DNA from: an uncultured delta proteobacterium
GTDB taxonomy: Bacteria; Desulfobacterota; Desulfovibrionia; Desulfovibrionales; Desulfovibrionaceae
Length of the DNA stretch: 64,000 nucleotides
Reading direction: 5' to 3'
Assembly (NCBI GenBank): GCA_900079685.1
Contig: LT599019.1
Location: forward strand, 419,864-483,863
A model generated the notes under the pieces. It had not been told where the DNA came from. It ran no database searches and worked only from the letters and a program-made list of their open reading frames with translations. The position numbers were made by a program, and so were the translations under genes. This document shows positions 31,316 through 32,456 of this stretch, piece by piece (position 1 is the first letter of the stretch; every line of letters begins with the position of its first letter).

Positions 31316-31885
31316 TTATGCGGGGTGATAAATGGTCGCGTAAATGGAACACGGTTCGTCGCCATACGCGCCCACGTAATGGGGCACGATGGAGTTGTAA
31401 TACACCGTGTCGCCGGGTTCCAGCACGGAACGCTCGTTCCCGTAGAGCACCAGCAGTTTCCCTTTGTGCACGACGATGAATTCCTCGCCCTGGTGGCTGG
31501 AGAGGTGGATGTCTTCCGCCGGTTCGGGCATGATCTCGATGAAGAAGGGCTCCATGTTGCGGTCAACCTTGCCCTTGCCCAGGGAGTAATACTTGTAGGA
31601 CGGCATGCGGCCGAGGCTGTGGTGCATGACCAGGTCGGCCTCGCGCTTGCTCTTGGTCGTGATGATGGGGTCCTTGCAGCTCACGTCGTCCATGAAGGTG
31701 CCGAGCCGGATCTGCATGGCGTGGGCGATTTTCTGCAGGGGGCCGATGGTGGGGTACACGCTCTCTTCTTCCAGCAGGCGGATGAAGTCGGGATCGAGGC
31801 CGGCGGTTTCCGCCAGTTGTTCACGGGTCATTTCTTTCGCTTCGCGGAACTTGCGGATACGGGAACCTATTTTTGATGCGGACAT
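31316..31885 (-). CDS. XRE-family regulator with C-terminal cupin domain
   Basis: The 189-aa protein has an N-terminal helix-turn-helix (IRKFREAKEMTREQLAETAG) and a cupin sensory barrel (SSHQGEEFIVVHKGKLLVLYG, LEPGDTVYYNSIVPHYV). Such HipB-cupin regulators often sense small carboxylates or CoA-linked metabolites. ATG 31885 follows GGAG by 8 nt; a TTG four codons earlier is in frame but inside the RBS. It heads the operon with the acyl-CoA synthetase, so that gene is its likely target. Confidence 0.9.
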   Translation of the reverse strand: MSASKIGSRIRKFREAKEMTREQLAETAGLDPDFIRLLEEESVYPTIGPLQKIAHAMQIRLGTFMDDVSCKDPIITTKSKREADLVMHHSLGRMPSYKYYSLGKGKVDRNMEPFFIEIMPEPAEDIHLSSHQGEEFIVVHKGKLLVLYGNERSVLEPGDTVYYNSIVPHYVGAYGDEPCSIYATIYHPA

Positions 31886-31976: not shown

Positions 31977-32019
31977 AAAAAAAGCGGTCCGGTAAGCTTG
32001 AAGAACTATCCCGGCCCGC
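31977..32019 (-). terminator. Attenuator terminator hairpin with U7 tail
   Basis: Leftward RNA: GCGGGCCGG (32019-32011), 18-nt loop, CCGGACCGC (31992-31984), then seven U. Eight of nine positions pair. It lies 92 nt before the XRE-cupin start codon. The alternative pairing partner is described with the leader peptide. Confidence 0.65.
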
Positions 32020-32047
32020 TACGCGGCGTGTTTGAAAAAGGAAACAG

Positions 32048-32128
32048 CTACCGCGCGAGAAGGCTCGGGTTGGCCCCGGACCGCTCTGCTAGTAGCAGGA
32101 GAGATATGGCGTGAATGGCTGTTTTCAT
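32048..32128 (-). CDS. Candidate regulatory leader peptide with four consecutive Leu codons
   Basis: Leftward ATG at 32128 opens 26 codons ending TAG: MKTAIHAISLLLLAERSGA, then NPSLLAR. Codons 10-13 are CTC CTG CTA CTA, including two CTA codons that are rare in this GC-rich window. A weak GGACGG precedes the ATG. GCGGTCCGG (32084-32076), directly after the Leu run, is the perfect complement of the 3' arm of the terminator at 31984-31992. The CGCGCGG around the stop codon can pair with CCGCG just ahead of the terminator's 5' arm. This is the architecture of leu/ilv-type transcription attenuation; function is inferred. Confidence 0.6.
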   Translation of the reverse strand: MKTAIHAISLLLLAERSGANPSLLAR

Positions 32129-32173
32129 AATGGTGCCGTCCGAAGGGCGGAATGCCCCATACCGGACGGTTGT

Positions 32174-32202
32174 TAGGTATCAGACGCGCCAAAGGCCGTC
32201 AA
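32174..32202 (-). promoter_or_regulatory. Candidate promoter of the leader/XRE-cupin operon
   Basis: Leftward TTGACG (32202-32197), 17-nt spacer, TACCTA (32179-32174). The -10 is weak. The start would lie about 40 nt before the leader peptide. Confidence 0.35.
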
Positions 32203-32214
32203 TAATTTTTTGCC

Positions 32215-32456
32215 GGTAGTGGCTCAATTTAGCTTCAGACATCTCTGCTCTCTTTATCCGTAAGGCTCGGAGACTCGCCTAACGGCTAAAGGAAGGAAGG
32301 CGTGCTTTTGCCGCAGGGAAGCCGACCCGGAGGGCTTGTGCCCGTGGGTGAGTCTTCGAGCCCTTACGGGCATCGAGAGCAACGCTGGGCTCTTTGGCCC
32401 ATGACCGAGGACAAAAGTGCGCCTGACGCAGTATCAAGCTAAATTGAGCCACTACC
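32215..32456. mobile_element. MITE-like element, 242 bp with 21-bp perfect terminal inverted repeats
   Basis: GGTAGTGGCTCAATTTAGCT plus one more T at the left end (32215-32235) is the exact reverse complement of 32436-32456. No transposase-sized reading frame lies between. I see no clear target-site duplication. The right end abuts the TAA stop codon of the GNAT gene at 32457. It is probably mobilised in trans by an unidentified transposase. Confidence 0.75.

Follow-up and report, generated by a model that had tools for sequence, protein, structure and literature searches.

The window, the whole 64,000-nucleotide stretch of DNA that was analysed, carries on its minus strand an XRE-cupin regulator gene followed by an acyl-CoA ligase gene, as assigned with Pfam and NCBIfam, and upstream of both a leader that runs from 32170 to 31977 (Table 1). 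The initial annotation had proposed this leader to be a leucine-type transcription attenuator, and direct reading recovered every element that it named. The 26-codon peptide with its four consecutive Leu codons is present as described, and the hairpin with its U7 lies between the leader ORF and the first gene, 91 nt from the XRE-cupin ATG (31885). The stem of this intrinsic terminator is 9-10 bp long and is followed by U7 both in the window genome (G000) and in its congener (G001), with one mismatch in G000 and none in G001. Within the 3′ arm of the 5′ hairpin, GGACGG is the only Shine-Dalgarno-like stretch upstream of the leader ATG. As a whole, the leader folds with a z of -4.3 relative to dinucleotide shuffles. 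Among the promoter-like elements, the TTGACG that had been annotated is present, and a TTGAC(T) element occurs at about the same position in G001; a sigma-70 scan of the region gave no match above the scan threshold, so the promoter is treated here as putative. Directly upstream of it lies a MITE-like element (32215-32456) with 26-bp terminal inverted repeats, which is not found at the leader site in G001. The only RNA family that reaches its gathering score in the window is the bacterial small SRP RNA (Rfam RF00169, 17474-17568).

Table 1. Features of the leader and its downstream genes, in window coordinates
Feature	Position	Strand	Basis or comparison
Promoter-like elements, weak (TTGACG 32202-32197; GATACC/TACCTA)	32174-32202	-	Direct reading; putative
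5′ hairpin CCGTCCG..CGGACGG	32136-32169	-	Stem identical in G001, 12-nt loop indel
Leader peptide ORF MKTAIHAISLLLLAERSGANPSLLAR, 26 codons + TAG	32048-32128	-	Kept in G001
Control codons CTC CTG CTA CTA	32090-32101	-	G001: ATC CTG CTA CTA
Region 1 AGCGGTCCGGGG, pairs with region 2 (protector) or region 4	32074-32085	-	Identical in G001
Region 2 CCCGAGCCTTCTCGCGCGG, antiterminator 5′ arm, end adjoins leader stop codon	32051-32069	-	Nascent-RNA folding
Region 3 CCGCGTAGCGGGCCGGG, antiterminator 3′ arm and terminator 5′ arm	32010-32026	-	Folding
Region 4 CCGGACCGC + U7, terminator 3′ arm	31977-31992	-	G001: CCGGGCCGC + U7
Terminator arms, then U7 ending at 31977	32020-32011 / 31992-31983	-	
XRE-cupin transcriptional regulator gene	31316-31885	-	Pfam HTH_3 and Cupin_2; conserved across the order
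AMP-forming acyl-CoA ligase gene, 561 aa	29608-31293	-	Closest NCBIfam model PRK12583, below cut-off

A whole-genome search gave one congener, G001 (a 74%-complete MAG and the sole congener compared), and 37 relatives at greater distance, of which nearly all have an XRE-cupin homologue. Gene order is kept in G001, where the leader is syntenic between a GNAT gene and the XRE-cupin and ligase genes. Its peptide, MQTINRAISILLLAERSGATPSHLAR, aligns without an indel to that of the window; 69 of the 81 nucleotides of the ORF and 19 of the 26 residues (20 counting the stop) are identical, against 49 of 87 positions (56%) in the spacer that separates the terminator from the start codon. A run of codons for one amino acid within a short ORF, as expected of leu/trp-type attenuators, is thus found in both species, with CTG CTA CTA conserved in G001 behind an ATC instead of a CTC codon. 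CTA is nearly unused in the genes of both genomes, making up 1.6% of Leu codons (9 of 553) in the G000 genes sampled and none of 166 in those of G001, so a conserved tandem CTA would not be expected from codon use. The stem of the 5′ hairpin is identical although the loop differs by 12 nt, and the protector helix (regions 1:2) is kept. One compensatory U-A/C-G double change maintains the apical helix of the terminator, and where the window stem has its G-A mismatch, G001 has a C-G pair, both in the alignment and by direct reading. As only two species carry the leader, covariation is thin, amounting to this one double change. The initial annotation had named a lack of conservation, or random covariation, of the Leu codons and the hairpin as grounds for dropping its reading; ORF, CTG CTA CTA, region 1, protector helix and terminator are instead all kept in G001, and the leucine-type reading is supported.

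The distribution of the leader is narrow. A DNA search in 59 relatives placed it only in G000 and G001, and a scan of 48 upstream regions found it only at L001, L002 and L031, which represent two species, L002 and L031 being the same genome. None of the other 45 upstream regions, drawn from the order and one Bacteroidota MAG, combines a Leu-run ORF with a terminator, and no leader was found outside the genus among the upstream regions scanned in the order. Weak further DNA matches in G009, G034, G041 and at a second G000 site were inspected and are not homologues of the leader. A pattern search with ATCCTGCTACTAGC, allowing two mismatches, was unspecific, its matches being about as frequent as those of the control. 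No Rfam family, including the leucine operon leader and the T-box, gave a covariance model match to the leader at gathering or permissive thresholds, which returned just three unrelated weak hits (E up to 5), and a check with an approximate E. coli leuL sequence gave no match and is given no weight here.

Such a leader might in principle be a chance assembly, the terminator of the upstream GNAT gene combined with a fortuitous ORF. Single helices are cheap in G+C-rich DNA and a strong antiterminator arises in about 7% of shuffles, yet the frame, the rare codons and the stem are conserved and the combination is unique in the sequence scanned. That scan found seven terminator-like sites in the window, both strands included, and 19 more in 0.84 Mb of strand sequence from other loci; by our criteria, the only terminator preceded by a short ORF with at least four consecutive Leu codons was that of the leader. 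We therefore regard a chance origin as highly improbable.

The anatomy of the leader, its conservation in the congener and its alternative pairings can be read from the two sequences themselves. According to the initial annotation, AGCGGTCCGG in the peptide, CGCGCGG at its stop codon and the terminator arms would offer mutually exclusive pairings. These elements are present (with AGCGGTCCGG at 32085-32076 on the minus strand and CGCGCGG at the stop codon), while the predicted antiterminator needed revision, as it pairs CCCGAGCC..CGCGCGG, and not CGCGCGG alone, with CCGCGTAGCGGGCCGGG. In folding nascent RNA that ended before the 3′ arm of the terminator, with the part covered by the ribosome left out, the predicted mean probability that region 3 is paired with region 2 was 0.10 (G000) and 0.05 (G001) with no ribosome, rose to ~0.88 and ~0.78 with codons 11-14 in the A site, and was 0 in both species for a ribosome at the stop codon. 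In G001, whose Leu run comprises codons 11 to 13, a ribosome stalled at codon 9 or 10 gave ~0.2. Within this thermodynamic model the antiterminator excludes the terminator and becomes available only when the ribosome stalls at the control codons, and the predicted pattern is the classical three-state behaviour. An equally strong pattern occurred in 9 of 1000 upstream-sequence shuffles for G000 and 37 of 1000 for G001 when pairing with region 2 only was counted, a measure picked after the result of a first test, in which every upstream pairing of region 3 was scored and the states were not resolved (G000: 0.81 with no ribosome, 0.88 when stalled). In the complete transcript the minimum-energy fold with a stalled ribosome is the terminator, or alternatively in G000 a stem of regions 1:4 that ends at the same U-run; readthrough therefore needs the usual kinetic argument that the antiterminator must form first.

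Taken together, the leader is probably a classical leu/trp-type attenuator, ribosome-mediated and responsive to charged tRNA-Leu, that controls the XRE-cupin/acyl-CoA ligase operon. Stalling, readthrough and the physiological reason for both we infer as follows. Charged tRNA-Leu would be sensed chiefly through the two adjacent rare CTA codons. When leucine suffices, the ribosome would reach the leader stop codon and cover region 2, so that regions 3 and 4 could pair and transcription would stop at U7. Under a shortage of Leu-tRNA, the ribosome would stall on CTG CTA CTA with region 1 covered, allowing regions 2 and 3 to pair and RNA polymerase to read through into the operon. In the absence of translation, regions 1 and 2 would pair and the terminator would form. 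The same device could conceivably answer a general arrest of translation, for instance by ribosome-targeting antibiotics, instead of leucine, and attenuators of that kind exist, as reported for bmrCD of Bacillus subtilis (PMC4191407). The tandem rare Leu codons sit where stalling frees region 2, however, and the target genes are not resistance genes, which makes this explanation quite unlikely.

The branched-chain amino acid genes of the genus give the leader its genomic context. Both G000 and G001 lack ilvC, which 13 of 14 other relatives carry (the fourteenth is a fragmented MAG); a full-score ilvB is likewise missing from the two and present in 14 of 14. In several relatives a DUF465 gene stands directly before ilvB, and in G011 before ilvN/ilvC. 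In G000 and G001, on one contig each, what follows the DUF465 gene is an inverted-repeat element, or a remnant of one, together with an rfbD-like gene. This shared, replaced junction, together with the absence of the ilv genes, argues that these genes were truly lost in the genus ancestor. At the lost ilv site, G000 has an inverted-repeat sequence related to the MITE-like element near the leader, and G001 has part of such a sequence. In G000 leuA is cleanly missing, its flanks lying ~145 bp apart (G000:C1:1416357-1416502, L127); the same flanks surround leuA in G001, where the gene has its own Leu leader. G000 retains leuB and ilvD, a branched-chain amino acid transaminase of the ilvE_II type (above cut-off), and subunits of 2-oxoacid:ferredoxin oxidoreductases, enzymes that are general in the order.

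The loss of these genes also bears on the alternative that the leader is a functionless relic of a leu or ilv operon stranded by rearrangement, the initial annotation having suggested a displaced leu-operon leader. The ilv genes are indeed gone from the genome, and in G000 leuA as well. Nevertheless, the leader is unlike G001's own leuA leader, no such leader occurs where the DUF465 gene directly precedes ilvB in several relatives, and it is syntenic in the two species with its structure kept while the adjacent spacer has diverged. We consequently disfavor this alternative as very unlikely.

For the attenuator reading, the question becomes what the ligase does. The best named family, PRK12583, is a generic fatty acid CoA ligase model, and sequence matches to solved structures leave the substrate unfixed. 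We tentatively suggest that the ligase activates branched-chain acids (isovalerate, 2-methylbutyrate, isobutyrate), so that, when leucine is short, it would supply branched-chain acyl-CoA for Leu/Ile/Val synthesis by reductive carboxylation. The 2-oxoacid:ferredoxin oxidoreductases would carboxylate these and the branched-chain transaminase would aminate the products, replacing the lost IlvBNC route. Formation of leucine from isovalerate by carboxylation and then amination is documented in rumen bacteria (PMC7356843, which cites Allison 1962 and 1966). Loss of ilvC and of a bona fide ilvB gives the link to branched-chain acid activation a context, and makes a role of the target genes in supplying leucine plausible. 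One possible hypothesis, to be held with the same reserve, is that a lineage without de novo branched-chain amino acid synthesis put the ligase under leucine attenuation, and would activate environmental branched-chain fatty acids and reductively carboxylate them to amino acids only when leucyl-tRNA is short.

Alternatively, the same attenuator may govern a ligase with some other leucine-linked purpose, such as activation of membrane lipids or fatty acids, or uptake of acids under starvation. XRE-cupin/ligase pairs are common in the order, including ilv-proficient relatives without the leader, so the basic job of the ligase need not be amino acid synthesis; the assignment to a generic family, below cut-off, is in keeping with this. 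In some relatives the pair occurs in two tandem copies (L104, L109 and L111, in G013, G008 and G003). Against another purpose stands the restriction of the leader to a genus without ilvC and ilvB, and we consider such a purpose quite possible, though short of probable. In six of the neighbourhoods examined, the pair lies ~4 kb before ilvBNC; because unrelated genes lie in between, this linkage is not strong evidence.

Attenuators usually sit on amino acid biosynthetic operons, and the amino acid that is sensed indicates the function of the downstream genes. Leucine would here hint at what an otherwise unassigned acyl-CoA ligase does in a genus that has lost the known route. If true, the leader would offer a genetic entry to the isovalerate carboxylation route to leucine, described at the physiological level since the 1960s, and would show re-targeting of attenuation after pathway loss. 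The mechanism is a known one, whereas the target is unusual and new to us, with support from two species; in the literature searched, whose coverage was incomplete, we found no leucine leader on an acyl-CoA ligase.

The enterobacterial leu operon leader (leuL) encodes a short peptide with four adjacent Leu codons, followed by competing helices and a U-run terminator before the first gene. The present leader shares the four-codon run, the competing helices and the U-run terminator; it differs in its target, which is a regulator with an acyl-CoA ligase in place of leuABCD, and in matching no Rfam model. In the ilv operon of Staphylococcus aureus, a leucine-rich leader peptide attenuates transcription (PMC5794164). 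There too, Leu codons in a leader peptide attenuate transcription downstream, with a branched-chain amino acid biosynthetic operon as the target and in a different phylum.

Closer at hand, CTA-rich frames also stand upstream of leuA in G001 (MQHSSQPYPANLPGAVQSALSGAFGPAISCGVAAFSGLLLRGSL) and in many relatives, and share with the present leader CTA-rich Leu codons near the end of the frame, shortly before the gene. Their peptides and helices differ, and in several relatives it is a full pssA gene whose 3′ end provides the frame. Seven relatives have a long frame before leuA, and the three that were read out contain a full pssA-like gene, which by its motif we take to encode CDP-diacylglycerol-serine phosphatidyltransferase. 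In L130, L131 and L139 (G005, G008 and G025) and others, the pssA-like 3′ end has rare CTA codons in tandem immediately ahead of leuA, and in G025 at least it is followed by a terminator-like stem and a long U run. The contrast within these pre-leuA genes is plain: across the seven genomes, CTA accounts, among Leu codons, for 20 of 38 within the last 30 codons and for 0 of 227 in the rest (p = 6e-20, a value that is optimistic because frames were picked for most CTA). It is as if a whole housekeeping gene, pssA, served as a leucine leader. CTA runs thus look like a leucine-control signature of the order, one that the ligase leader would use too.
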